From the NCBI RefSeq assembly GCF_005771565.1, contig NZ_VAWA01000003.1:62001-126000 (forward strand): a stretch of DNA of 64,000 bases, in the 5' to 3' direction. The translations under genes and the position numbers were made by a program. Below the pieces are notes generated by a model that saw nothing but the letters and a program-made list of their open reading frames with translations, was not told the DNA's origin and made no database searches. This DNA comes from Nesterenkonia sphaerica. Its GTDB lineage: Bacteria > Actinomycetota > Actinomycetes > Actinomycetales > Micrococcaceae. The stretch's first letter is position 1. Each line of letters begins with the position of its first letter. Shown here one piece after another: positions 10,691-56,906 of this stretch.

Positions 10691-11348
10691 CGCGGCGGCC
10701 GAGCACCGCCATGCGCAGGAACTCTCCCACATGGGAGATCTCCTGGGGGACGACGCCGTGGCCGGCACCGGCGTAGAGCACCTTGGTCAGGTCCACTGTT
10801 GAGTTGGCCCACCGGTGGGTGTACTCCACCATGTCCTCGGGGATGATGGGGTCAGCTTGGTCCCGGCCCCAGAAGAAGGGAATGTGACGGGCACGGAGGG
10901 CCTCGTCGTCGAAGAAGCCCTCGATCCCCTCCCCACGCTGCGGGTCCACCGCAAAGCCGGAGAGGCCCACCACGGCCTGGAAGGCCTCAGGCCTGCTCCG
11001 CAGCAGGCTGGTGGCGATCGCCATACCCATGGAGAAGCCGATGAGCGTCACCGAGCTGTGCTGCCCACGGACCGAGTCGATCCATTCCCAGAGGTCGTCC
11101 ACCGCCTGGCGCGCCGCAGCCGAAGAGTACGCCAGCCGCTCCACATCCAAGTCGAACCAGGTGTAGGCGCTGAATCCCATGGAGACCTGGGCGCGGACGG
11201 AGGCGTAGGTGAACTCACTGGGAAGTCCCGGCACCATGCCGAGCAGATCTTGTTCGTTGGCCCCGTGGCCGTGCAGCAGCACCGCCAGCGGGGTGCCCTC
11301 CCGTTGAGTCTCCGGACGCGTCCATTCCACTGTGTAGTCACCAGTCAT
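10668..11348 (-). CDS. Alpha/beta-hydrolase, phospholipase/carboxylesterase family
   Basis: The 226-residue protein has the oxyanion-side LLHGHGANEQDLL motif (residues 24-36), the nucleophile elbow GFSMG (Ser106), the acid in GRDQADPIIP (Asp166) and the base in GAGHGV (His197), so the Ser-Asp-His triad is complete. This family hydrolyses carboxyl or thioesters; the substrate here is unknown. The start has AGGA seven bases upstream and lies nine bases after the moaE stop, so it is probably the last gene of the moeA-moaC-moaE unit. A role in cofactor metabolism is not implied by the family. Its end overlaps the convergent S4 gene by 23 bases. Confidence 0.85.
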   Translation of the reverse strand: MTGDYTVEWTRPETQREGTPLAVLLHGHGANEQDLLGMVPGLPSEFTYASVRAQVSMGFSAYTWFDLDVERLAYSSAAARQAVDDLWEWIDSVRGQHSSVTLIGFSMGMAIATSLLRSRPEAFQAVVGLSGFAVDPQRGEGIEGFFDDEALRARHIPFFWGRDQADPIIPEDMVEYTHRWANSTVDLTKVLYAGAGHGVVPQEISHVGEFLRMAVLGRRVSPQRSH

Positions 11349-45592: not shown

Positions 45593-47488
45593 TCAGCCGG
45601 CGGATTCGGTGAAGATCCCGGCGAAAAACTCTGCCAGAGCGGCGGTGTCCGTCAGCGGCAGCACATGTGCCACGTACTGATCCGGCCGCACCACCACCAC
45701 GGCTCCGGAGCGGCTGATGCTGCGCTGCTCGAAGATATTGTGCTCCGGGTCCACGGCGAAAACATTGTTGAAGTCCCGCAGGCGGAAGGGCCCGACCTCG
45801 GGCAGGAACAGCGCCGGGGCGTCCAGCACTTCGAACTCCGTGTGCCGCTGCTGATACACCGCTTTGATGTCGAACAGCGAATTGGTGTCCGCCCCCGTGG
45901 GGGTGTGCCTGCGCACCGGCGACTCAGGCGATTCCGCCATCCATGCCGCCCACTCGGTCAGTGCCGACGCCTGCCCGGCTGCAGGCTGATCCGCGAAAGC
46001 GTAGATGCGCCAGCGGCCGTCTGCTTCAGCCAAGTGCCCCAGGTGCAGCGGGTTGGTGTCGCAGACGCGCACCACCTTCTCAGACTTGAAACGTTTGCCG
46101 ACTGTGAAGCCTGCGGCCAATTCCTGGTGGTCGGCCTTGCCGGTGATCATGGAGGGCTGGTATTCGGTCATGAAGCCGGCGGGGAACTCAAAGGTCTTGT
46201 CGTAGAACTCTTCAAGCTCTGCGGGGTCGTCGAACTCCTCGGGCCGCTTGGCCATCATGGTTGACCATTCCCGGTCAAAGTCGATGAGGTTCTGGGCCAC
46301 CACCTGGCGCTCTTCGGAATAGGTCGCCAGCAGCGATTCAGGGCTGCGGCCGGTGACCACCTGCCCGAGCTTCCAGCCGATGTTGAAGCCGTCCTGCATG
46401 GAGACATTCATCCCTTGACCGGCCTTCGCACTGTGGGTGTGGCAGGCGTCTCCGGCGATGAAGACCCGAGGGGTGCGTTCGCCGGTGAGCTCGGCCGGGA
46501 CGTCGTCGAACTTGTCAGTGAGGCGATGGCCGACCTCGTAGACACTGTTCCAAGCCACATGCCGGACGTCGACGGTGTAGGGGTGGAGGATGGCATTGGC
46601 CTTCTGCACAATCTCGTCCAGGGTGGTCTTGCGGATCTCACGTGCCCGCTCGGGGCTCACCTCACCGAGATCAACGTACATCCGGAAGAGGTGCCCGCCC
46701 TCGCGGGGAATGAGCAGGATCGAGCCGCCGGACTGCGACTGGATGGCGCATTTGAGCCGGATGTCGGGGAAGTCGGTCCGGGCCAGTACGTCCATGACCC
46801 CCCAGGCGTGATTGGCCTGTTTGCCCTCCAGGCTGCGGCCAATGGCGGTGCGCACGCCGCTTCGGGCACCATCGGCTCCGAGCACGTACTTGGCCCGGAT
46901 GGTGCGTTCCTCGCCCTCCCGCTCTGCGGAGGTGTGGCGCACCCGCACCTCAACCGGGTACTCCCCCTCGCCGGTGACCTGGAGGTCGAGGAACTCAATG
47001 CCGTAGTCGGGGCGCATTCGGCTCGGTGAGTTGGCCATGAATTCCGCAAAATAGTCCAAGATTCGGGCCTGGTTCACGATCAGGTGGGGGAACTCTGAGA
47101 CTCCCTGCGGGTCATCGACCTTCTGGGCGGACCGCGCAATATGGGCGGGGTTGGCGGGGTCGGGCTTCCAGAATGCCATTTCCGTCAGGTGGAAGGCCTC
47201 GGTGATGAGCCGCTCGGCGAAGCCGAAGGCCTGGAAGGTCTCCACACTGCGGGCCTGGATGCCGTCGGCCTGGCCGACTTCCAGCCGCGCGGGCCGACGC
47301 TCGATGATCCGGGTGTGCACCTCGGGGTACTGGGAGAGCTGGGCGGCGGCGATCATTCCGGCAGGTCCGCTGCCGACGATCAGCACGTCCATCTGGTCCG
47401 GCAGCTCAGCCGGACGGTCCTTCCCGATGCCGGCCACCGGCTGGATTCTTGGGTCGGTGGAGACATAACCGTGGTGGTGGAACTGCAT
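45593..47488 (-). CDS. FAD-dependent aromatic hydroxylase (MobA/phenol 2-monooxygenase type)
   Basis: The 631-residue flavin monooxygenase begins MQFHHHGYVSTDP, like 3-hydroxybenzoate 4-monooxygenase (MobA) proteins. It has the FAD motif VLIVGSGPAGMIAAAQ (residues 35-50), the ADGARSGVRTAIG motif and FIAGDACHTHSAKAGQGMN. About the last 170 residues form the thioredoxin-like domain of the phenol hydroxylase group. It is the last gene of the homoprotocatechuate operon, ten bases after hpaI. By analogy with MobA, 3-hydroxyphenylacetate to 3,4-dihydroxyphenylacetate is my best guess; 4-hydroxyphenylacetate is also possible. NAD(P)H use is assumed from the family. Confidence 0.82.
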   Translation of the reverse strand: MQFHHHGYVSTDPRIQPVAGIGKDRPAELPDQMDVLIVGSGPAGMIAAAQLSQYPEVHTRIIERRPARLEVGQADGIQARSVETFQAFGFAERLITEAFHLTEMAFWKPDPANPAHIARSAQKVDDPQGVSEFPHLIVNQARILDYFAEFMANSPSRMRPDYGIEFLDLQVTGEGEYPVEVRVRHTSAEREGEERTIRAKYVLGADGARSGVRTAIGRSLEGKQANHAWGVMDVLARTDFPDIRLKCAIQSQSGGSILLIPREGGHLFRMYVDLGEVSPERAREIRKTTLDEIVQKANAILHPYTVDVRHVAWNSVYEVGHRLTDKFDDVPAELTGERTPRVFIAGDACHTHSAKAGQGMNVSMQDGFNIGWKLGQVVTGRSPESLLATYSEERQVVAQNLIDFDREWSTMMAKRPEEFDDPAELEEFYDKTFEFPAGFMTEYQPSMITGKADHQELAAGFTVGKRFKSEKVVRVCDTNPLHLGHLAEADGRWRIYAFADQPAAGQASALTEWAAWMAESPESPVRRHTPTGADTNSLFDIKAVYQQRHTEFEVLDAPALFLPEVGPFRLRDFNNVFAVDPEHNIFEQRSISRSGAVVVVRPDQYVAHVLPLTDTAALAEFFAGIFTESAG

Positions 47489-47497
47489 GTGATCTCC

Positions 47498-48310
47498 TCA
47501 GGTGCCGGACGGCAGTTCGGCCGCCGGCGTGGTGGGCTGGTCAATGAAGTCTGCGGCGAGTTTCTCGGAGCCGCGGGCCATCAGGACGACGTCGGCCCCG
47601 ACAAGAATCCAGCGGGCGCCAGCGGCGGCGTAGTCGTGGGCGGCGCTGGGGTCGAAGGCGTTGACTCCAGCGGGTTTCCCGGCGGCGTCGATCTGCGCGA
47701 AGGCGCTCTTGACCGCAGAGACCACATCCGGGTGCGTCTGCTGGCCGAGCAGACCCATGGAGGCCGCTAAGTCACTGGGGCCGAGCAGGACGCCGTCGAT
47801 GCCCTCCACTGCTGCGATCTCGGCGGTATTGGCCAGGCCTTCTTGGGTTTCGATCTGGACAAATACGCACACGTGCTCTGCCGCCTCCTGCACGTAGTTT
47901 GGCACCCGGTTCCACCGCCCGGAGCGCGCCAGCGCACTACCGACCCCTCTGATTCCGCGTGGAGGGTACTGGACCATCGCTGCGATCTGCGCCGCCTGCT
48001 CAGCGGTGGAGACCATCGGCACCAAGAGGTTCTGCACCCCGAGGTCCAGGACCTGCTTGATGATGACCGGATCGCCCGCAGGCACCCGCACCATGACGGA
48101 AGTGGGGTACCCGGAAGCGGCGTGCAGCTGGGCGAGCACCGAGTCCAGGCCGTTGGGTGCATGCTCCATATCGATGAGCAGCATGTCCAAGCCGGAGCCA
48201 GCCATGATCTCAGCCGCGACCGCAGATCCGGAGCTGACCCATCCGCCGTAGAGGGGGCGTTGGGCCTGGGAGAGCTCGTACGCGAAGGTGGGGTTCAGCT
48301 GAAGCGGCAT
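47498..48310 (-). CDS. hpaI: 4-Hydroxy-2-oxoheptane-1,7-dioate aldolase
   Basis: The 270-residue class II aldolase splits 4-hydroxy-2-oxoheptanedioate into pyruvate and succinate semialdehyde. Family blocks are YGGWVSSGSAVAAEIMAGSG, LLIDMEHAPN, RVPAGDPVIIKQVLDLG, VQIETQEGLANTAEIAAVEG and the metal aspartate in LGPSDLAASMGLLGQ. The ATG at 48310 lies inside the end of hpaH (16-base overlap). A GTG at 48340 is a possible earlier start. Confidence 0.92.
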   Translation of the reverse strand: MPLQLNPTFAYELSQAQRPLYGGWVSSGSAVAAEIMAGSGLDMLLIDMEHAPNGLDSVLAQLHAASGYPTSVMVRVPAGDPVIIKQVLDLGVQNLLVPMVSTAEQAAQIAAMVQYPPRGIRGVGSALARSGRWNRVPNYVQEAAEHVCVFVQIETQEGLANTAEIAAVEGIDGVLLGPSDLAASMGLLGQQTHPDVVSAVKSAFAQIDAAGKPAGVNAFDPSAAHDYAAAGARWILVGADVVLMARGSEKLAADFIDQPTTPAAELPSGT

Positions 48311-49080
48311 GTCACCGTTCCCATCGTGCCGTAATCGCACAGGACAGTGTCACCGGATTCCACCCACATGGGCCGGGTGAAGGAGCCGGCGAGAATGATC
48401 TCCCCGGCGGCCAGCGAGTCGCCATGAGCGGCGAGCTTATTGGCCAGCCACACCACACCGTTGGCTGGATGGTTCAGCACCGCCGCGGCCACCCCGGACT
48501 CCTCAATGGTCTCGTTGCGGTACAGCAACGCCGAGACCCAGCGCAGGTCAATGTCCTGGGGCCTGACCGGGTTTCCGCCGTAGACCATGGCTCCCATGGC
48601 CGCATTGTCACTGATGGTGTCCACAATGGTCCGGTTCTGCATCTCAATCCGAGAGGAGAGAATCTCCAGCGCGGGGATGACGTAGTCCGTGGCGTCGATG
48701 ACGTCGAAGACCGTCACCTCAGGGCCGGCGAGCGCTTTGCCGAGCACGAAGGCCAGCTCCACTTCAATGCGAACATTGGAGAACCGGCTGTGGTCAATCA
48801 CCGAACCGTTCTCGTAGACCATGTCAGCGAAGATCGCGCCGTAATCGGGTTCTGTGATGCCGGTGGCGGCCTGCATGACTTTGGAGGTCAGCCCGATCTT
48901 GCGTCCCACCGGCCTTCGTCCGGCCTCGACTCCGCGGCGGCGCCATTCATTCTGTACCGCGTAGGAGTCCTCGATGGTCATCTCCGGGTGGCGGGCGGTC
49001 AGCAGGGGGACCGTGGTCCGGCTCCGTTCGGCCCGGGCGAGTTCGTCGGCGATAGATGTGATGGTCTCTTTGCTCAGCAT
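48295..49080 (-). CDS. hpaH: 2-Oxohept-4-ene-1,7-dioate hydratase
   Basis: The 261-residue enzyme of the FAH-related hydratase group (HpaH/MhpD) adds water to 2-oxohept-4-enedioate. Blocks include TIEDSYAVQNEWRRRG, GRKIGLTSKVMQAATGI, EPDYGAIFADM, RIEVELAFVLGKAL (metal-binding glutamates) and VLNHPANGVVWLANKLA. GAGGAGCC seven bases upstream sets the ATG at 49080, ten bases after hpaD. It precedes hpaI with overlap. Confidence 0.92.
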   Translation of the reverse strand: MLSKETITSIADELARAERSRTTVPLLTARHPEMTIEDSYAVQNEWRRRGVEAGRRPVGRKIGLTSKVMQAATGITEPDYGAIFADMVYENGSVIDHSRFSNVRIEVELAFVLGKALAGPEVTVFDVIDATDYVIPALEILSSRIEMQNRTIVDTISDNAAMGAMVYGGNPVRPQDIDLRWVSALLYRNETIEESGVAAAVLNHPANGVVWLANKLAAHGDSLAAGEIILAGSFTRPMWVESGDTVLCDYGTMGTVTCRFS

Positions 49081-49090
49081 ATTGGCTCCT

Positions 49091-50197
49091 CTACAGCTGG
49101 TGGCCGAGCTTGTACTCGCCCTGTTTCCACTCCGGGAGAGATTCCTCGTCGTCCTTGCGGGTGTAGGAGAACCCGTCGGCGCCGATGGTGACGTCCATCT
49201 CGGAGTCATCGGTGCGTTCGGTGGTCGCCACAGGGTTGCCGTCGAGGTCCAGCACGGTGGAGGCTTCGGTGTACCAGGAGGGCACCACTGGATTGCCCCA
49301 CCAGTCGCGGCGCTGGTTGTCGTGCACATCCCAGGTCACCACCGGGTTGTCCGGGTCGCCGGTGTAGTAGTCCTGGGTGTAGATCTCAATACGGTGCCCG
49401 TCCGGGTCCCGCAGGTAGAGGTAGAACGCGTTGGAGACTCCGTGGCGCCCGGGGCCCCGCTCAATCCGGTCCGAGAGCCGCAGCGCGCCGAGCTTGTCGC
49501 AGATGGCCAGAATGTTGTGCTTTTCGTGGGTCGCGAAGGCGACGTGGTGCATGCGCGGGCCTGCCCCACCGGTCATGGCGGTATCATGCACCGTCGGTTT
49601 GCGGCGCATCCAGGCGGCATAGGTGGTGCCGGCCTGGTCCTGAATGTCTTCGGTGACGCGGAAGCCCAGATCCTCCATGTACCCCACAGCTTTCGGCACA
49701 TCAGGGGTGACCTGGTTGAAGTGGTCCAGGCGCACCAGCGCACCGGGGGTATAGAGGTCGTAGCGCCACGCCAACCGGTCCACGTGGTCCACGTCGTAGA
49801 AGAACTCGTAGGGGAAGCCCAGGGGGTCTTGGACGCGCACGGAATCCCCGATGCCTCTGACGAACCCGTCCTTCTTCCGCCGCACCGGGCAGCCCAGTTC
49901 GGCGTAGAACGCTTCGGCTTTGTCGAGCTCCTCGGGGCTGCGCACGCGGTAGGAGAACGCGGCCACGGCGGCCGCCTCGCCCTGCCGCAGGACCAGGTTG
50001 TGGTGGATGAACTCCTCCATGGAGCGCAGGTAAATGGCGTCGTCGTCCTCATAGGTGACCACCAGGTTCAATACGTCCACGTAGAAGTCGCGGGAACGCT
50101 TCAGATCGGTGACCACCAGCTCCATGTAGGCGCAGCGGAGAATATCGGGCGCCGGAGCCTTCGGGGTGGGAATGGCGGCAGCGGTGGGGTCAGTCAT
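49091..50197 (-). CDS. hpaD: 3,4-Dihydroxyphenylacetate (homoprotocatechuate) 2,3-dioxygenase
   Basis: The 368-residue extradiol dioxygenase opens the ring of homoprotocatechuate. It is of the vicinal-oxygen-chelate type like the Brevibacterium iron enzyme HPCD and the Arthrobacter manganese enzyme MndD. With a +4 offset to HPCD, the metal ligands are His159, His218 and Glu271, the acid-base histidine is His204 (PTVHDTA), and Trp196 and Tyr261 are in place. AAGGA eight bases upstream favours the ATG at 50197. Iron and manganese forms cannot be told apart by sequence. Confidence 0.95.
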   Translation of the reverse strand: MTDPTAAAIPTPKAPAPDILRCAYMELVVTDLKRSRDFYVDVLNLVVTYEDDDAIYLRSMEEFIHHNLVLRQGEAAAVAAFSYRVRSPEELDKAEAFYAELGCPVRRKKDGFVRGIGDSVRVQDPLGFPYEFFYDVDHVDRLAWRYDLYTPGALVRLDHFNQVTPDVPKAVGYMEDLGFRVTEDIQDQAGTTYAAWMRRKPTVHDTAMTGGAGPRMHHVAFATHEKHNILAICDKLGALRLSDRIERGPGRHGVSNAFYLYLRDPDGHRIEIYTQDYYTGDPDNPVVTWDVHDNQRRDWWGNPVVPSWYTEASTVLDLDGNPVATTERTDDSEMDVTIGADGFSYTRKDDEESLPEWKQGEYKLGHQL

Positions 50198-50231
50198 GTC
50201 GGGCATCCTTGCTCAGTCATGGCGGGGGGTC

Positions 50232-51737
50232 TCAGTCAGCTTTTCCGAAAACGGGGTTGTGCACCTCGCCGAGGTTGATGTGCACTGCCTGCTGGTCGGT
50301 GTAGAAGTCTATGGAGCGGTAACCACCCTCATGACCCAGACCCGAGGCCTTCACCCCGCCGAAGGGGGTGCGCAGGTCGCGGACATTATTGGAGTTCAGC
50401 CACACCATTCCGGCCTCGACGGCCTGGGCGAAGTTGTGGGAGCGTTTCAGATCGTTGGTCCAGACATAAGCAGCCAGACCGTACTTGGTGTTGTTCGCCA
50501 ACTCCAGAGCTTCAGCTTCGGTGTCGAAGGCAGTGATGGCGACCACCGGACCGAAGATCTCCTCCTGGAAAATACTGGCCTCGGGGGCGACGTCGGCAAA
50601 CACTGTAGGGGCAATGAAATTACCCGTCTCGTAGCCCTCCGGCCGGCGCCCGCCAGCCACAAGGCGACCTTCAGACTTGCCCTTTTCGACGTAACTCATC
50701 ACCTTGTCGAAGTGCTCGGGGTGGACCAGGGCCCCGACCTCCGTCTCGGGTTCGTGGGGCAGCCCGACTTTGACGCGCTCGGCCTGGGCGGCATAACGTT
50801 CGACGAATTCGTCGTAGACGCTGCGTTCGACCAGAATGCGCGAACCAGCTGTGCAGCGTTCCCCGTTGAGTGAGAAGACGCCGAAAATTGTGGCGTTGAC
50901 GGCGGCCTCGAGGTCCGCGTCTGCGAAGACGATGGCAGGTGACTTGCCGCCGAGCTCCATGGACAGGCCCTTCAAATGCGGTGCCGAGTTGGCGAAGATC
51001 AGCTGCCCGGTGCTGGACTCTCCGGTGAAGGAGATCAGCGGGACCTCCGGGTGCTTCACCAGGGCATCGCCGGCTTCCTCACCGATACCGTTGACCAGGT
51101 TGAACACGCCCCGGGGAAGCCCAGCCTCTTCGAAGATACCGGCCCACAGCCCAGCAGAGAGGGGGGTGAACTCAGCAGGCTTGAGCACCACAGAGTTTCC
51201 GGTGGCCAGCGCTGGTCCCAGTTTCCAGCTCTCCAGCATGAAGGGGGTGTTCCAGGGGGTGATCAGGCCGGCGACTCCGATCGGCTTGCGATTAACGTAG
51301 TTGATCTGCCGTCCCGGCACTTTGTACGTGTCGTCGGCCTGGGCGACGATCAGGTCGGCGAAGAATCGGAAGTTCTCGGCTGCACGGCGCGCCTGGCCCA
51401 GCGCCTGGGTGATCGGCAGGCCGGTGTCGAAGGACTCCAGCTCGGCCAGCCGGTCGCCGCGGCTCTCCACCAGGTCGGCGATGCGGTGCAGCACCTTGGA
51501 CCGCTGCCGGGGCAGGGACTGGGACCAGGTGCCCTCCCGGAAGGTGCGCTGCGCCACCGCCACCGCCCGGTCGATGTCGGCCGTCTTCCCAGCCGATGCC
51601 TGGATGTAGGTCTCATTGGTCACAGGGTTGAGCACATCGAAGGTCGCACCGTCTGCTGAGTCGACAAACTCGCCGTCGATGTAGTGCCGGATGCGCTCGG
51701 GCAGCTGCGCCGGTGTGTGGGTTTCGTACTGGGCCAT
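50232..51737 (-). CDS. hpaE: 5-Carboxymethyl-2-hydroxymuconate semialdehyde dehydrogenase
   Basis: The 501-residue aldehyde dehydrogenase oxidises the ring-cleavage product of HpaD. It carries PWNTPFMLESWKLGPALATG, SFTGESSTGQLIF, the general base in SMELGGKSPAIVF and the nucleophile in NGERCTAGSRILVE. Length and the RQINYVNRKPIGVAGLI segment fit HpaE. It lies between the GntR gene (32 bases) and hpaD (34 bases) in the operon. Confidence 0.94.
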   Translation of the reverse strand: MAQYETHTPAQLPERIRHYIDGEFVDSADGATFDVLNPVTNETYIQASAGKTADIDRAVAVAQRTFREGTWSQSLPRQRSKVLHRIADLVESRGDRLAELESFDTGLPITQALGQARRAAENFRFFADLIVAQADDTYKVPGRQINYVNRKPIGVAGLITPWNTPFMLESWKLGPALATGNSVVLKPAEFTPLSAGLWAGIFEEAGLPRGVFNLVNGIGEEAGDALVKHPEVPLISFTGESSTGQLIFANSAPHLKGLSMELGGKSPAIVFADADLEAAVNATIFGVFSLNGERCTAGSRILVERSVYDEFVERYAAQAERVKVGLPHEPETEVGALVHPEHFDKVMSYVEKGKSEGRLVAGGRRPEGYETGNFIAPTVFADVAPEASIFQEEIFGPVVAITAFDTEAEALELANNTKYGLAAYVWTNDLKRSHNFAQAVEAGMVWLNSNNVRDLRTPFGGVKASGLGHEGGYRSIDFYTDQQAVHINLGEVHNPVFGKAD

Positions 51738-51769: not shown

Positions 51770-52438
51770 TCAGTGGCCTTGTTCCCGAAAGGCCTCGACG
51801 GTGCGCCACTTGTGGTGACGGACGGTCATCTCTATCTGGGTGGGGTCGGCGTTCTGCCGCAGCAGCTGCAGGATCTCGTCGTGCTCCTCCACTGAGCGCG
51901 GGGCCCGCTCGGGCACAAAGCTGAAGGTGGAGCTGCGCAGCCCGGCCATGGTGCTCCATCCGCGATCCACCAACGTCCCGATGTAGGCGTTCGGGCAGCG
52001 GGCGTAGAGGATGCGGTGAAATTTTTCATTCAGTCTGGTGAAGACAGCGGGATCGAAATTCTGCAGCGCGCTGCGCATCTGGTCGTTGACTGCTTCGGCG
52101 GTGGCGATGTCCTCTGCGGTGAGATGAGGCAGCGACAGCACCGTGGCGGCTCCCTCCAAGACACCGAGGGCCTGCATGGCCTCGACGTATTCGTTCTCCT
52201 GGACCATGGCCACCCGAGCGCCGACATTGCGTTCGAATTCCACCAGCCCCTCGGCCTCGAGCCGACGGATCGCTTCACGGACCGGCACAGTGCTCACCGC
52301 CAGCTCTGCAGCGATGCTGCTCAGCACCAGACGGTAACCCGGGTTGAAGTCGCGGGCCAGGATACGTTCACGTATCCACTCATAGGTCCGCTGCGATTTG
52401 CTCGCCGACTCTGGGAGCTCTCCCGTCACTGCGCTCAA
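51770..52438 (-). CDS. GntR-family (FCD) regulator of the hpa operon
   Basis: The 222-residue regulator has an N-terminal winged helix (LVLSSIAAELAVSTVPVREAIRRLEAEGLVEF in two parts) and an FCD helical ligand domain with the metal-type residues in FTRLNEKFHRILYARCPN and a later HDEILQLL. Its start overlaps the stop of the FAH-RraA gene by four bases, so it is translated from the operon mRNA and probably regulates that operon through the operator at 53944-53955. The effector is unknown, presumably an aromatic acid or a pathway intermediate. Confidence 0.88.
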   Translation of the reverse strand: MSAVTGELPESASKSQRTYEWIRERILARDFNPGYRLVLSSIAAELAVSTVPVREAIRRLEAEGLVEFERNVGARVAMVQENEYVEAMQALGVLEGAATVLSLPHLTAEDIATAEAVNDQMRSALQNFDPAVFTRLNEKFHRILYARCPNAYIGTLVDRGWSTMAGLRSSTFSFVPERAPRSVEEHDEILQLLRQNADPTQIEMTVRHHKWRTVEAFREQGH

Positions 52439-53910
52439 CCTTGTGCTCTCTCCGCTTCATAGCGTGCACGCCACTGCGCGTTCATGGGGAAGACCTCTTG
52501 GATCGGGTGCCCGGCCTTGACCTGCTCGGCCACCCATGCGTCCTCGGTTTCTTTGGCCAGAGCAGCATCGGCCACCTCCTCGGCCAGCGCCGGCGGCAGC
52601 ACGATGACGCCGTCGTCGTCGGCGACGATGATGTCCCCGGGCTGGATGGTGGCTCCTCCGCAGGCGATGGTGAGGTCAGTGTCCCAGGGGACGTGTTTGC
52701 GTCCGAGAACGGCAGGGTGCGCACCGCGGGAGTAGACAGGCAGGTCGATCGCAGCAACGGTGGCGTAGTCCCGCACGCCTCCGTCGGTGACGACTCCGGC
52801 GGCGCCGCGGGCTGCTGCTCGTAGTGCCAAGATATCGCCGAGTGTGCCGGAGCCGGATTCCCCACGTGCTTCGATGACGATGACCTCATCGCTGCTGACC
52901 TGGTCGAACGCCTGCTTCTGAGCGTTGAACCCACCGCCGTGCGAGGAGAAGAGGTCCTCGCGGTTGGGCACAAAGCGCAGTGTCTTGGCGGTGCCGACCA
53001 TCTTGCTGCCCGGCCGGGTGGGGCTGACCCCGTCGATGGTGACATTGTTCAGTCCGCGCTTGCGCATCTCCTGGGAGAGTCCGGCCACCGGAGCCTCGCG
53101 CAGCTTTGCCTTCAGCTGCGCCGTCAGCACTGGTTCGGCGGCAGCGGGCAAGCCGGCGGCGTGCCGTGATCCCCAGGCCTCTTCACGCTGCAGATCATTG
53201 ACCTTCGGAACGGCGCCGACCTCCGCCGCAAAGGTGTCGGTCCCTTCGATCACTGTGGAGACCAGCCGTCCGCTGCTGAGCCCCGCCGCCGGCGCGTCCA
53301 CTTCCACCTCGAGGGTGTCACCGGGCTGGGCCACGGAGGCGCCGGCGGGCGTGCCGGTGAGGATGACGTCTCCGGGTTCCAGGGTCAGGTGCTGGGACAG
53401 GTCAGCGATCAGCTGAGCAAACGGGAAGATGAGGTTCCCGGTCGTGTCCTCCTGGACCAGTTGGCCGTTCTTCCACGTGCGCAGCCGCAGCGCTGAGGGG
53501 TCCACCTGCTCCGCAGTGATGAGGTCTGGCCCCAGGGGCGTGTATCCATCACGTCCCTTATTGCGGAGATTCGAGCCCTTGTCCGCCCAGCGGAGATCAT
53601 AGAGCCCCCAATCGTTGCTCGCGGTGATGGCCGAGACATGATGCCAGGCCTGTTCGACTGACACCCGCCGGGCCGCAGTGCCGATGATCAGAGCGATCTC
53701 CCCTTCGAAGGCGAGCAGCTCAGTCCCTGGGGGTCGCTCCACAGTACGGCCGGAAGCCGCCACCGAGCTTGTTGGCTTGAGGAAGTAGGACGGCGCTTCA
53801 GGGCGCCGACCGCGCTCAGCTGCACGCGACTCGTAGCTGATGTGAACGGCGATGATCTTACTCGGCGGCTGTGCCAGCGGCGAGTCTTGCACCTGTGCTT
53901 CAGAAAACAT
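52435..53910 (-). CDS. Fusion of FAH-family isomerase/decarboxylase and RraA-like domain
   Basis: The 491-residue protein joins two folds. Residues about 1-235 are a fumarylacetoacetate-hydrolase-type domain with metal ligands in AFEGEIALIIG (Glu69, Glu71) and ASNDWG (Asp100) plus the family end LEPGDVILTGTPAG. Residues about 260-480 are RraA-like: PVAGLSQEMRKRGLNN, GTLGDILAL (Gly358-Asp359), GVVTDGGVRDY (Arg380-Asp381) and QPGDIIVADDDGVIVLP, the residues of RraA-family aldolases/decarboxylases. In E. coli HpaG both halves are FAH-type. It probably performs the decarboxylation and/or isomerisation steps after HpaE. It is the first gene of the operon; the ATG at 53910 follows AAGGG closely. 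Confidence 0.85.
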   Translation of the reverse strand: MFSEAQVQDSPLAQPPSKIIAVHISYESRAAERGRRPEAPSYFLKPTSSVAASGRTVERPPGTELLAFEGEIALIIGTAARRVSVEQAWHHVSAITASNDWGLYDLRWADKGSNLRNKGRDGYTPLGPDLITAEQVDPSALRLRTWKNGQLVQEDTTGNLIFPFAQLIADLSQHLTLEPGDVILTGTPAGASVAQPGDTLEVEVDAPAAGLSSGRLVSTVIEGTDTFAAEVGAVPKVNDLQREEAWGSRHAAGLPAAAEPVLTAQLKAKLREAPVAGLSQEMRKRGLNNVTIDGVSPTRPGSKMVGTAKTLRFVPNREDLFSSHGGGFNAQKQAFDQVSSDEVIVIEARGESGSGTLGDILALRAAARGAAGVVTDGGVRDYATVAAIDLPVYSRGAHPAVLGRKHVPWDTDLTIACGGATIQPGDIIVADDDGVIVLPPALAEEVADAALAKETEDAWVAEQVKAGHPIQEVFPMNAQWRARYEAERAQG

Positions 53911-53943: not shown

Positions 53944-53972
53944 ATCATATACGATGTCAGATATGACGCCAA
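53944..53972 (-). promoter_or_regulatory. hpa operon promoter with GntR-type operator
   Basis: On the minus strand a TTGGCG -35 (53972-53967), a 17-base spacer and a TATGAT -10 (53949-53944) precede the FAH-RraA gene. The -10 is part of the palindrome ATCGTATATGAT (53955-53944, 10 of 12 symmetric), a typical FCD-GntR operator form. Just upstream is a second inverted repeat, CCGATA-n6-TATCGG (53983-54000). Confidence 0.6.
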
Positions 53973-54102: not shown

Positions 54103-54894
54103 CTACTGCAGCAGTGTCTTATCGTCCAGCGCAGCACCTTTGATCTTGGCGAACTCGGCCAGCAGATCTGCCGGTGTCAGCTGTGACTTCTCTGCTTCGG
54201 AGACGTCCAGAATGATCCGACCCTCATGCATCATGATCAAGCGGTTGCCGACCTCCAACGCCTGGGCCATATTGTGAGTGACCATCAGCGTGGTCAGTCC
54301 CTGCTCCTCAACTACCTTCTTGGTCAGTCGAGTCACCAGATCCGCCCGCTGCGGGTCCAGCGCTGCGGTGTGCTCGTCGAGCAGCAGCACCTTCGGCTGC
54401 GAGAAGGTCGCCATCAGCAGGCTCAGCGCCTGCCGCTGACCCCCGGAGAGCAGCCCGACCTTGGTCTTAAGCCGATTCTCCAGACCCAGCTCCAGGACCT
54501 TCAGCGCCTCGGCGAACCGCTCCCGCTTCGCCCGAGTCACTCCGAATCCGAGTCCGCGGGGCCGGCCCCGCTTGTCAGCCAAGGAGAGGTTTTCCTCGAT
54601 GGTGAGGTTAGGGCTGGTCCCCGCCATGGGGTCCTGGAACACTCGGCCCACTTGGGCGGCGCGCTGGTGCTCCTTGAGCTTGGAGACATCACGGCCGTCC
54701 AAGGAGACAACTCCCTCATCCTGGCTGATGCGCCCGGCGACTGTGTTGAGCACCGTCGACTTCCCCGCACCGTTGGACCCGATGACGGTCACGAAGTCCC
54801 CGGGAGCGAGCGAGAGGTTCACGTTCACCAGGGCCTTGCGTTCGTTTACGGTCCCAGGAAAGAAGGTCTTGGACACGTCAGTGACATCAAGCAT
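54103..54894 (-). CDS. ABC transporter ATP-binding protein (TrpZ-like)
   Basis: The 263-residue ATPase drives import with the permease upstream. Walker A is GSNGAGKST, the Q-loop is in VFQDPMAGTSPNLTIEENL, the signature is LSGGQRQALSLLMA, Walker B is VLLLDEHTAALDP and the H-loop is VTHNMAQALEVG. Only one ATPase is present, so it should act as a homodimer. It is the last gene of the MFS-SBP-permease-ATPase series, three bases after the permease. Confidence 0.92.
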   Translation of the reverse strand: MLDVTDVSKTFFPGTVNERKALVNVNLSLAPGDFVTVIGSNGAGKSTVLNTVAGRISQDEGVVSLDGRDVSKLKEHQRAAQVGRVFQDPMAGTSPNLTIEENLSLADKRGRPRGLGFGVTRAKRERFAEALKVLELGLENRLKTKVGLLSGGQRQALSLLMATFSQPKVLLLDEHTAALDPQRADLVTRLTKKVVEEQGLTTLMVTHNMAQALEVGNRLIMMHEGRIILDVSEAEKSQLTPADLLAEFAKIKGAALDDKTLLQ

Positions 54895-54897
54895 GGT

Positions 54898-55842
54898 TCA
54901 GCTCACCTTCTTTCCATCGATCTTCGCATCACCGGTCAGCGTCGCGGCAGCCGCGGCCTGCAGAGCCGAGCGTCCCTTCCTTCGCCGGGCTGCGAGCTTC
55001 CGGAACCCTTTCCACTGCGGCAACAGCAGGGCGGCGATCACCAGCAGCGCAGACATCAGCTTCATGTCATTGGGGTTCAGTCCCGCATTCAGTGCGAACT
55101 GGATCGCCAACCGGTAGATCACTGCACCCAGGACCACGGCCATGGTGGCTTGGACCACGATGCGGGTGCCGAAGATCGCCTGACCGACGATCACCGAGGC
55201 TAGGCCCACCAGGATCAACCCGATGCCCATTCCGATATCAGCGAAGCCCTGGTGCTGGGCGACCACTGCGCCGGCGAGACCCACGAGGCCGTTGGAGAGC
55301 ATCAGCCCGATGATCTTCATCCGGTCGGTGGAGACGGCGAAGGAGCGGATCATCTGCTCATTGTCCCCGGTGGCCTGCAGCGCCAGTCCGGCATCAGTGT
55401 GCAGGAACCAGTCGATGATGAACTTGAACACCAGCGCCACAGCGACGAGCACCATTACCGAGGTCCAGCCGCTGCCTGCAATCTGCCGCAGCAGAGAAAT
55501 GGTGGTGTCTTCCCCCAGCAGGGGGATATTGGCTCCGCCCATAATCCGCAGGTTGATGGAGTAAAGACCGATCATCGTCAGGATTCCGGCCAAGAGGCCA
55601 TTGATGTTGCCTTTGGTATGGAGCAGTCCGGTGATCAGCCCGGCCAGTGTGCCCACCACGAAGGCGGCGCCGCTGGCCAGAAACGGATTGACTCCGTTGA
55701 TGATAAGGATGGCCGCGGTCGCAGCCCCCGAGGTGAAAGAACCGTCAACAGTCAGATCCGGGAAATTGAGGATCCGGAATGTCAGGTAGACCCCGAGGGC
55801 CACGATCGCGTAGATCAGGCCTAATTCAAGCGCAGTGATCAT
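54898..55842 (-). CDS. ABC transporter permease (branched-chain/TrpY type)
   Basis: The 314-residue membrane protein has eight or more hydrophobic helices and the BPD_transp_2 pattern (NFPDLTVDGSFTSGAATAAILI near the N-terminus, NGLLAGILTMIGLYSINLRIMG, ALQATGDNEQMIRSFAVSTDRMKIIGLMLSNG in two parts). This pattern is usual for permeases paired with ABC_sub_bind lipoproteins. Its start overlaps the binding-protein stop by four bases. Confidence 0.9.
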   Translation of the reverse strand: MITALELGLIYAIVALGVYLTFRILNFPDLTVDGSFTSGAATAAILIINGVNPFLASGAAFVVGTLAGLITGLLHTKGNINGLLAGILTMIGLYSINLRIMGGANIPLLGEDTTISLLRQIAGSGWTSVMVLVAVALVFKFIIDWFLHTDAGLALQATGDNEQMIRSFAVSTDRMKIIGLMLSNGLVGLAGAVVAQHQGFADIGMGIGLILVGLASVIVGQAIFGTRIVVQATMAVVLGAVIYRLAIQFALNAGLNPNDMKLMSALLVIAALLLPQWKGFRKLAARRRKGRSALQAAAAATLTGDAKIDGKKVS

Positions 55843-56906
55843 TCGTCTTCTTCGTCGTCCTCACCGGCGTCAGCGGGATCCTCTGCCTCGACGTCCTCAC
55901 CGACGACCACGTCGGCGCGGTCGACAATGTCGTCTGAGAGCTCAACGCTCATCGCCTCGGCAGCATCCGGGTTGACGGTCAGCTCCAGCTCTGACTGGGT
56001 CTCCACAGCCATGGTCGCTGGGTCCTCGCCATCGACGAGAATGCGGATGGCCATTTCGCCAGCCTGGTAGCCCAGCTGCTCATAGTCGATGCCGTAGGTC
56101 GCCACAGCCCCGCGGATCACGGAGTCCGCCTCAGCCGCGATGATCGGCACATCATTGTCCTGACCGTACTGGATGACAGCTTCCAGCGCTGAGACCACAG
56201 CGTTGTCGGTGGGCACGTAGATCGCGTCCACGTCGAGGGACTCCACGCCCTGCTGGACCTCCGAGGAGGCCGAGATGGTTGCTTCCTGTACCTCCAGGCC
56301 CAGCTCCTCGGCAGCCTCCTGGAGCATCTCTACCTGTACTTGGGAGTTGGTCTCACCGGAGGAGTAGACCACACCGACGGTCTCAGCATCGGGCAGGATC
56401 TCCTGCAGGAGCTCCAGCTGCTCGGAGACCGGGTTCATATCCGAGGCGCCGGTGATGTTGCCGCCTGGCTCCTCCCAGGAATCCACCAGTCCGGCCTCTT
56501 CGGGGTCGGTGACCGAGGAGAAGACGATCGGAATATCGGTGATCTGCTGAGCGGCAGCCTGGGAGGTGGGGGTCGCGATGGAGTGGACCAGGTCCAGGTC
56601 TCCGTTGGCGAAGGTGCCAGCGATGTTCGAGGCGGTCGCCTGCTCACCCTGGGCATTCTGCTCGTCCCACTCGACCTCGATTCCGGCGTCGTCGAAGGCG
56701 CTCTTGAACCCTTCCCGCGCTGCGTCCAGGGCAGGGTGCGACACGATCTGAGTGATGCCGATGGAGTAGCTCTCGGCGGCCTCTCCCCCGTCGCCGTTGC
56801 CCTCAGCGTCGCCGTTGCCATTGTCATTGCCATTGCAGGCGGTCAGCAGTAACGCTGTAGCTGCCGCAGTGGCAGCAATGCGCACCGCAGGTGTTCTGTT
56901 CATCAT
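55839..56906 (-). CDS. ABC transporter substrate-binding lipoprotein (TrpX/XynX family)
   Basis: The 355-residue lipoprotein has a signal peptide with lipobox LLTAC (cysteine near residue 24) and a Gly/Asn/Asp-rich linker. The binding domain is of the ABC_sub_bind type: IGITQIVSHPALDAAREGFKSAF, PIVFSSVTDPEEAGLVDSWE, GVVYSSGETNSQVQVEML and AIYVPTDNAVVSALEAV. Family members bind tryptophan or other aromatic or small ligands, so an aromatic substrate is plausible next to the hpa operon. The last 20 residues are almost all Asp and Glu. GGAG six bases before the ATG at 56906. Confidence 0.88.
   Translation of the reverse strand: MMNRTPAVRIAATAAATALLLTACNGNDNGNGDAEGNGDGGEAAESYSIGITQIVSHPALDAAREGFKSAFDDAGIEVEWDEQNAQGEQATASNIAGTFANGDLDLVHSIATPTSQAAAQQITDIPIVFSSVTDPEEAGLVDSWEEPGGNITGASDMNPVSEQLELLQEILPDAETVGVVYSSGETNSQVQVEMLQEAAEELGLEVQEATISASSEVQQGVESLDVDAIYVPTDNAVVSALEAVIQYGQDNDVPIIAAEADSVIRGAVATYGIDYEQLGYQAGEMAIRILVDGEDPATMAVETQSELELTVNPDAAEAMSVELSDDIVDRADVVVGEDVEAEDPADAGEDDEEDE

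Follow-up and report, generated by a model that had tools for sequence, protein, structure and literature searches.

Genes and Features of the Locus

The window, a stretch of 64,000 nucleotides of Nesterenkonia sphaerica DNA, contains a homoprotocatechuate (HPC) operon whose genes all lie on the minus strand in the order fusion-GntR-HpaE-HpaD-HpaH-HpaI-monooxygenase. The first of these genes (52435-53910), delimited by its open reading frame and by Pfam and NCBIfam profiles, encodes 491 amino acids in which an FAH domain is joined to an RraA domain, and runs from an ATG at 53910 to a stop ending at 52435 with zero internal stops. Pfam places FAA_hydrolase at residues 19-209 (53284-53856, minus strand; E 4.4e-50), which include the putative metal ligands E69, E71 and D100, and RraA-like PF03737 at residues 277-437 (52600-53082, minus strand; E 6.8e-35, 121 bits against a cut-off of 24.5), where alignment with 3noj picks out D359-X20-R380-D381. 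The single open frame rules out, in the window, that FAH and RraA are separate genes or that a hidden stop divides the halves; the claim of the original prediction that both reside in one undivided polypeptide therefore holds, and its position for the gene was right, the gene itself being on the minus strand. A longer alternative frame with a GTG start reaches 54096. This start was rejected, and 53910 is the likely one, because a conserved palindrome and a promoter-like site (53944-53972) sit within the longer frame.

The gene of a GntR/FCD regulator, assigned by Pfam (51770-52438), shares 4 bp with the end of the fusion gene. It is followed, after gaps of 32, 25 and 10 bp respectively, by the genes for HpaE, the CHMS dehydrogenase (50232-51737; TIGR02299, 644.2 bits against a cut-off of 638.35), HpaD, homoprotocatechuate 2,3-dioxygenase (49091-50206; TIGR02295, 434.1 against 321.4), and HpaH, a hydratase (48295-49080; TIGR02312, 363.6 against 351.5). 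The gene of an HpaI-type aldolase (47498-48310; PF03328) overlaps that of HpaH and scores 301.9 bits with TIGR02311, under the cut-off of 368.8; its start, ATG 48310, was assigned by eye, and a longer frame begins at 48340. Another 9 bp past HpaI lies a flavin monooxygenase gene (45593-47488) matching the NCBIfam profile PRK08294 (phenol 2-monooxygenase-like). HpaD and HpaE are adjacent on the same strand, the arrangement by which we recognized a homoprotocatechuate operon, and with HpaE, HpaD and HpaH over their NCBIfam cut-offs the predicted membership of the gene in such an operon is borne out. By sequence the best solved structure for HpaD is the homoprotocatechuate 2,3-dioxygenase 1q0c (642 bits), which we take to be the enzyme of Brevibacterium fuscum, and because of this closeness homoprotocatechuate is the likely ring-cleavage substrate. 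The monooxygenase is a probable hydroxyphenylacetate hydroxylase, and may have this role because HpaB-like and flavin-reductase-like genes adjoin the fusion in three related loci, L019, L024 and L026 (the HpaB of L026 is over its cut-off, at 584 vs 480 bits). Upstream of the fusion, at 54103-56906, the window also holds an ABC_sub_bind-type ABC transporter (ATPase, permease and binding protein), which is found in L007 as well and partly in L006.

The palindrome ATCRTATAYGAT (53944-53955) covers the -10 of the promoter-like site, 34-45 bases upstream of the fusion ATG, and has no second exact copy in the 2.79-Mb genome. Allowing for up to one mismatch, it occurs around the fusion start in 19 of 21 related loci (L022 and L024 were left out of this count), exactly in 11 of them, against a background of nine among the 426,266 positions elsewhere in these loci; the pattern was drawn from the same 21 loci, so that the 19 of 21 is descriptive and the genome-wide uniqueness is the independent check. 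Of the nine other sites, four are found some 50 bp ahead of the monooxygenase gene and two ahead of HpaH; an MFS gene and a regulator are preceded by one each. At L007 the palindrome lies 15 bases inside the assumed gene, so the start assumed there is too far upstream. We infer that the palindrome is a probable operator of the co-encoded GntR/FCD regulator, which would probably control transcription of the operon by binding over the -10 region.

Conservation of the Two Halves

The residues named by the original prediction, E69, E71, D100, G358, D359, R380 and D381, are all present and do not vary in any of the 41 fusions aligned, whose pairwise identities go down to 51%. This alignment comprised the 43 loci examined less three, plus the window; the three were L022 (frameshifts, several genes) and L024 and L047, both cut by contig ends. 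Residue 384, presumably the E/D position of another RraA motif, is variable among the aligned fusions. Because the active-site residues never vary in the 41 fusions, both halves are, as far as sequence can tell, likely to be enzymes. A further alignment consisted of the window and 16 of the 21 other named loci, L022 and L024 being left out. A model of the fusion predicted from 17 sequences is of medium confidence (pLDDT 78, pTM 0.57), and its Foldseek matches are Thermus HpcE, HPCE 1i7o, RraAS2 and HMG/CHA aldolase. The fusion also gives a full-length match to NF009399/PRK12764 (829 bits, cut-off 444; positions 11-494 of 501), and deposited records name it either “fumarylacetoacetate hydrolase family protein” or “putative Dimethylmenaquinone methyltransferase”.

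Against the HpaG profiles the fusion stays under every cut-off (HpaG-C 141 bits/276, HpaG-N 104/229, full HpaG 128/811), and it thus falls outside the two-FAH HpaG class as the profiles define it while carrying the metal triad of the decarboxylase half. Compared with the halves of 1gtt, the FAH half scores 125 bits with the C-half, whose triad aligns with E69/E71/D100, and 64 bits with the N-half, where both Glu ligands are absent. The fusions group with E. coli HpaG in an FAH tree (support 93/87), in which branches are long and the stand-alone FAH of genome G208 is closest to them (100/98); since the EcHpaG_N branch has a length of 4.55, descent of the FAH half from an N- or a C-half is unsure. 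Outside the operon, contigs C34 and C1 of the window's genome each carry a further FAH gene; these score 183 and 166 bits with HpaG-C, above the fusion (146 in this comparison) but, like it, below the cut-off of 276.

The RraA half passes NF006093 (228.7 bits against a cut-off of 208), the profile of subfamily PRK08245, which carries no named function. Its Asp, Arg and Asp align with the active-site positions of 3noj, and the resulting D-X20-R-D, which we take to be the motif form of the class II pyruvate aldolase of RraA fold, places it with that aldolase by its residues. The profile of LigK/HMG-CHA aldolase itself, TIGR02798, is not reached by the fusion (95 bits vs 304.5).

Co-occurrence with HpaD

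Relatives of the fusion, 57-79% identical over the best segment, were found at 23 named loci. In 22 of these the fusion is followed by HpaE and HpaD on its own strand, the 23rd (L024) ending at a contig end, so that a search for the same domain order next to HpaD/HpaE in other actinobacteria, put forward as a check with the original prediction, came out in its favor. GntR comes directly after the fusion in 21 of the 23 loci and behind HpaD in L027; HpaH and HpaI are both present in 17 (L024 is cut, and L028 shows neither these nor a DapA-like gene), and a relative of the monooxygenase in 16. Four loci (L019, L021, L026 and L027) keep the fusion and have a DapA-like gene of the DHDPS family before HpaE with no match to HpaH or HpaI. 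This gene, which in L019 scores 346 bits with TIGR02313 “HpaI-NOT-DapA” (cut-off 397), is probably an aldolase and perhaps a hydratase-aldolase; a DapA-like gene was also seen in L103, of G208.

In a sample of 296 genomes of the class, the fusion and HpaD exceed their cut-offs in the same 20 genomes. A sample of 347 genomes from the same order as the window's genome, which overlaps the class sample and consists of related genomes whose counts are not independent events, contained 104 genomes matching the fusion profile and 102 with HpaD over cut-off, 95 having both. All 102 HpaD genomes have the RraA half, in 95 as the fusion, in one as split frames and in six as a separate gene beside HpaD; the fusion occurs without HpaD solely in G442 and G502, and HpaD is found in 37 of the 104 genera. 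The split case, G563 (L113, 10684-12155), has the halves in different frames with the switch within the linker, and may be a natural split or a sequencing error. Outside the group HpaD does occur without the fusion: among 14 control genomes, three (Thermus composti, Deinobacterium chartae and Sulfolobus acidocaldarius) have HpaD over cut-off and none has the fusion. Five genomes have a sub-cut-off HpaD-like match, and the loci read in two of them, G142 and G256, led nowhere.

The HpaG N-half profile is over cut-off in none of the 20 fusion genomes, and HpaF (PF02962) matches in one, G208, on a different contig from its two fusions. As a positive control PF02962 gives 171 bits with E. coli BL21 HpaF; it matches none of the 14 control genomes. 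The window's genome has a match neither to PF02962 nor to PF01361, the 4-OT tautomerase, which was considered as a general HpaF substitute and rejected, as it is present in 11 of the 20 fusion genomes and the window's genome is without it. Because the HpaG-N and HpaF profiles are mostly absent from fusion genomes, up to three steps are left there without other assigned enzymes. The original suggestion that the fusion stands in for HpaG agrees with both this absence and the near-perfect co-occurrence with HpaD in the sampled genomes.

Stand-alone RraA Genes

A stand-alone RraA gene whose product is 62-67% identical to the RraA half of the window was found at seven loci, one in each of six genomes of genus g129 (L107-L112) and the seventh a second locus of G448. 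By profile coordinates the gene lies 23-119 bp from an HpaD-like gene in the six g129 genomes; HpaI stands beside it in all six and HpaH in five (all but L109). Within the 17.5-18 kb read around it, no FAH or HpaE match was found in any of the six, and HpaE is over cut-off in none of these genomes. Farther along the same contig, each genome does have an FAH gene (15-30 kb away) and an aldehyde dehydrogenase gene (18-32 kb away); the one aldehyde dehydrogenase scored is SSADH-like. At the second locus of G448, an FAH gene lies within the same 17-kb stretch as RraA. In L114, too, the stand-alone RraA gene is accompanied by HpaI and HpaH.

The RraA tree puts the stand-alone rows inside a 15-row fork with the fusions (100/99), while their own grouping is weak (22/72), and from their place in this fork the stand-alone genes probably descend from the fusion by loss of the FAH half. 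Because no FAH or HpaE match stands beside it in the six genomes, RraA may work without an adjacent FAH. If ring cleavage in g129 gives the di-acid directly, RraA need only isomerize. Possibly these loci belong to a further meta-cleavage pathway with methoxylated aromatics as substrate; L107 has an O-demethylase-like gene nearby, which at 376 bits is below the cut-off of 800. A second HpaD-like gene, 80% identical to that of L107, was seen with LysR and GntR regulators in L101 of G117 (dioxygenase at 11181), and the stretch read there has no RraA match. More distant stand-alone RraA relatives (40-43% identical) lie on alphaproteobacterial plasmids, with no hpa-annotated neighbor in the three regions read.

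Discussion

The scheme that we infer for the pathway begins with 5-carboxymethyl-2-hydroxymuconate (CHM), which HpaD and HpaE would supply to the fusion and which the fusion would convert via OPET and HHDD to 2-oxohept-3-enedioate (OHED); HpaH and HpaI, or the DapA-like aldolase in some relatives, would then turn OHED into pyruvate and succinic semialdehyde. In view of the coupling to HpaD and of the counts for HpaG-N (0/20) and HpaF (1/20), the fusion very probably runs this CHM-to-OHED leg as the actinobacterial counterpart of HpaG. As to which half does what, the allocation that we prefer, at about even odds, makes the FAH half the decarboxylase and the RraA half a keto-enol isomerase. The FAH half would use a divalent metal bound by E69/E71/D100 to decarboxylate OPET, a role we favor because it keeps the ligands of the published decarboxylase half, two of which the isomerase half lacks. 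The RraA half would bind its metal at D381, next to R380 and D359, and carry out the keto-enol isomerization of a 2-oxo acid, HHDD to OHED, and perhaps also the HpaF step from CHM to OPET, and would thereby replace the HpaG N-half and perhaps HpaF. This role is favored because the enolate protonation of HMG/CHA aldolase fits keto-enol isomerization of 2-hydroxydienoates: the Pseudomonas putida enzyme makes and protonates pyruvate enolate, and its R123K substitution lowers proton exchange ~19-fold (PMC5065237). In our alignment R123 takes the position of R380 of the fusion. To the explanation as a whole, an HpaG counterpart with an FAH decarboxylase and an RraA isomerase, we give a probability of roughly 60%. 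Counting against it are the two FAH genes outside the operon with higher HpaG-C scores, the stand-alone FAH of G208 as closest relative in a tree with long branches, the activity of HHDDI described below, the g129 loci with RraA and no FAH in the stretch read, the lack of any HpaF match among the 14 control genomes, the hpaF located elsewhere on the Corynebacterium aurimucosum chromosome (PMC2830990), and the medium confidence of the structural model.

The published roles of the HpaG halves come from work in which the metal-binding C-half (OPETD) is taken as the OPET decarboxylase and the N-half (HHDDI) as the HHDD isomerase, both being needed together and CHMI (HpaF) serving as an accelerator (PMC12718150). 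That paper itself calls the working of the two domains ambiguous. In Acinetobacter baumannii the activity of the complex is 60-fold above OPETD and only 12-fold above HHDDI, so that by itself HHDDI was the stronger decarboxylase of the two, which leaves the role published for the metal half less than firm. The observation lends some weight to the allocation made in the original prediction, with OPET decarboxylation in the RraA half and isomerization in the FAH half, as do the oxaloacetate decarboxylation by HMG/CHA aldolase, a member of the RraA family (PMC5065237), the description of FAHD1 as oxaloacetate tautomerase as well as decarboxylase (PMC12176266), by which an FAH protein can isomerize, and the six genomes with RraA beside HpaD-like and HpaI genes (HpaH in five) and no FAH in the stretch read. 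We nevertheless regard this allocation as rather unlikely, and as less likely than our preferred one, for the FAH half is closer to the metal-binding HpaG C-half (141 vs 104 bits by profile, 125 vs 64 by structure sequence) and keeps the full triad of the published decarboxylase half, of which the published isomerase half retains only one residue; moreover, the g129 HpaD-like enzyme is only 38-40% identical to HpaD of the window (five scored).

Alternatively, the FAH half alone might both decarboxylate and isomerize, as FAHD1 combines tautomerase and decarboxylase in one FAH protein (PMC12176266), and the RraA half would then serve a side reaction, such as oxaloacetate/pyruvate handling, or act as a second aldolase, as HMG/CHA aldolase, of RraA fold, is a pyruvate aldolase (PMC5065237). 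This appears improbable to us, as the RraA half is nearly perfectly coupled to HpaD in the sampled genomes and is retained next to HpaD-like, HpaH and HpaI genes at loci that have lost the FAH half, most operons already contain aldolases, and OPETD of A. baumannii is ~60-fold less active alone than with its partner (PMC12718150). Finally, it is very hard to credit that the RraA half regulates an RNase E-type activity in the manner of Streptomyces RraAS2, which a review reports to inhibit RNase ES (PMC10126417) and which (as 5x15) is the closest solved structure to the RraA half by sequence (120 bits) and a Foldseek match, given that all 41 aligned fusions conserve the residues that line up with the class II aldolase active site and that the gene travels with a catabolic operon. 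Neither RNase E regulator RraA profile is reached (NF006875, 55.6/136 bits; TIGR02998, 28.1/241).

Returning to the preferred reading, an FAH decarboxylase with an RraA isomerase, a bolder form can be sketched in which a single polypeptide covers three successive steps, from CHM through OPET and HHDD to OHED, a domain of RraA fold works on a ring-cleavage product as a metal-dependent tautomerase or decarboxylase and replaces both the HpaG N-half and HpaF, and stand-alone descendants serve a second meta-cleavage pathway; taken together this is tentative, and we would sooner doubt than assert it. A literature search of titles and abstract openings found no description of the fusion, its RraA half or the operon, and among the same titles and abstract openings no report of an RraA-fold tautomerase or decarboxylase acting on a ring-cleavage product. 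Arthrobacter Rue61a grows on 4-hydroxyphenylacetate and homoprotocatechuate, and the main text of the paper describing it contains no mention of RraA (PMC3534580); as far as the cited passages go, the actinobacterial steps after HpaE rest on annotation alone in the literature. If our reading is true, a widespread family gains a function and the RraA fold a new reaction, and which HpaG half does what becomes testable, because the halves of the fusion are unrelated folds.

The architecture is already catalogued: NCBIfam NF009399/PRK12764.1, “fumarylacetoacetate hydrolase family protein”, has the two domains of the fusion under a name that carries no reaction, and what is new is a functional reading of a known architecture, the present analysis tying the family to HPC catabolism. 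As a fusion the protein is ordinary, and the interest lies in its second half. This half shares the RraA fold with HMG/CHA aldolase (LigK type, 3noj) and RraAS2 (5x15), and has the Asp, Arg and Asp of 3noj in alignment, but remains far below the LigK cut-off. The hpaGLEDHI cluster of Corynebacterium aurimucosum has the gene order of the window, with hpaG given as an OPET decarboxylase and hpaF elsewhere on the chromosome (PMC2830990). With OPETD/HHDDI of A. baumannii TH the likeness is that two partners act jointly on CHM/OPET, but there both are of FAH fold and come from separate genes with a separate CHMI, whereas the fusion has unrelated halves in one chain (PMC12718150). E. coli HpaG/HpcE (1gtt, 1i7o) resembles the fusion in having an FAH domain with the C-half metal triad, in its presumed operon role and, in BL21, in being encoded by the first gene ahead of hpaE and hpaD; it consists of two FAH halves, however, whereas the fusion is without the second and has an RraA domain in its place (128 vs 811 bits). 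Where E. coli has a doubled enzyme, some actinobacteria with homoprotocatechuate genes combine two unrelated enzyme halves in one protein.
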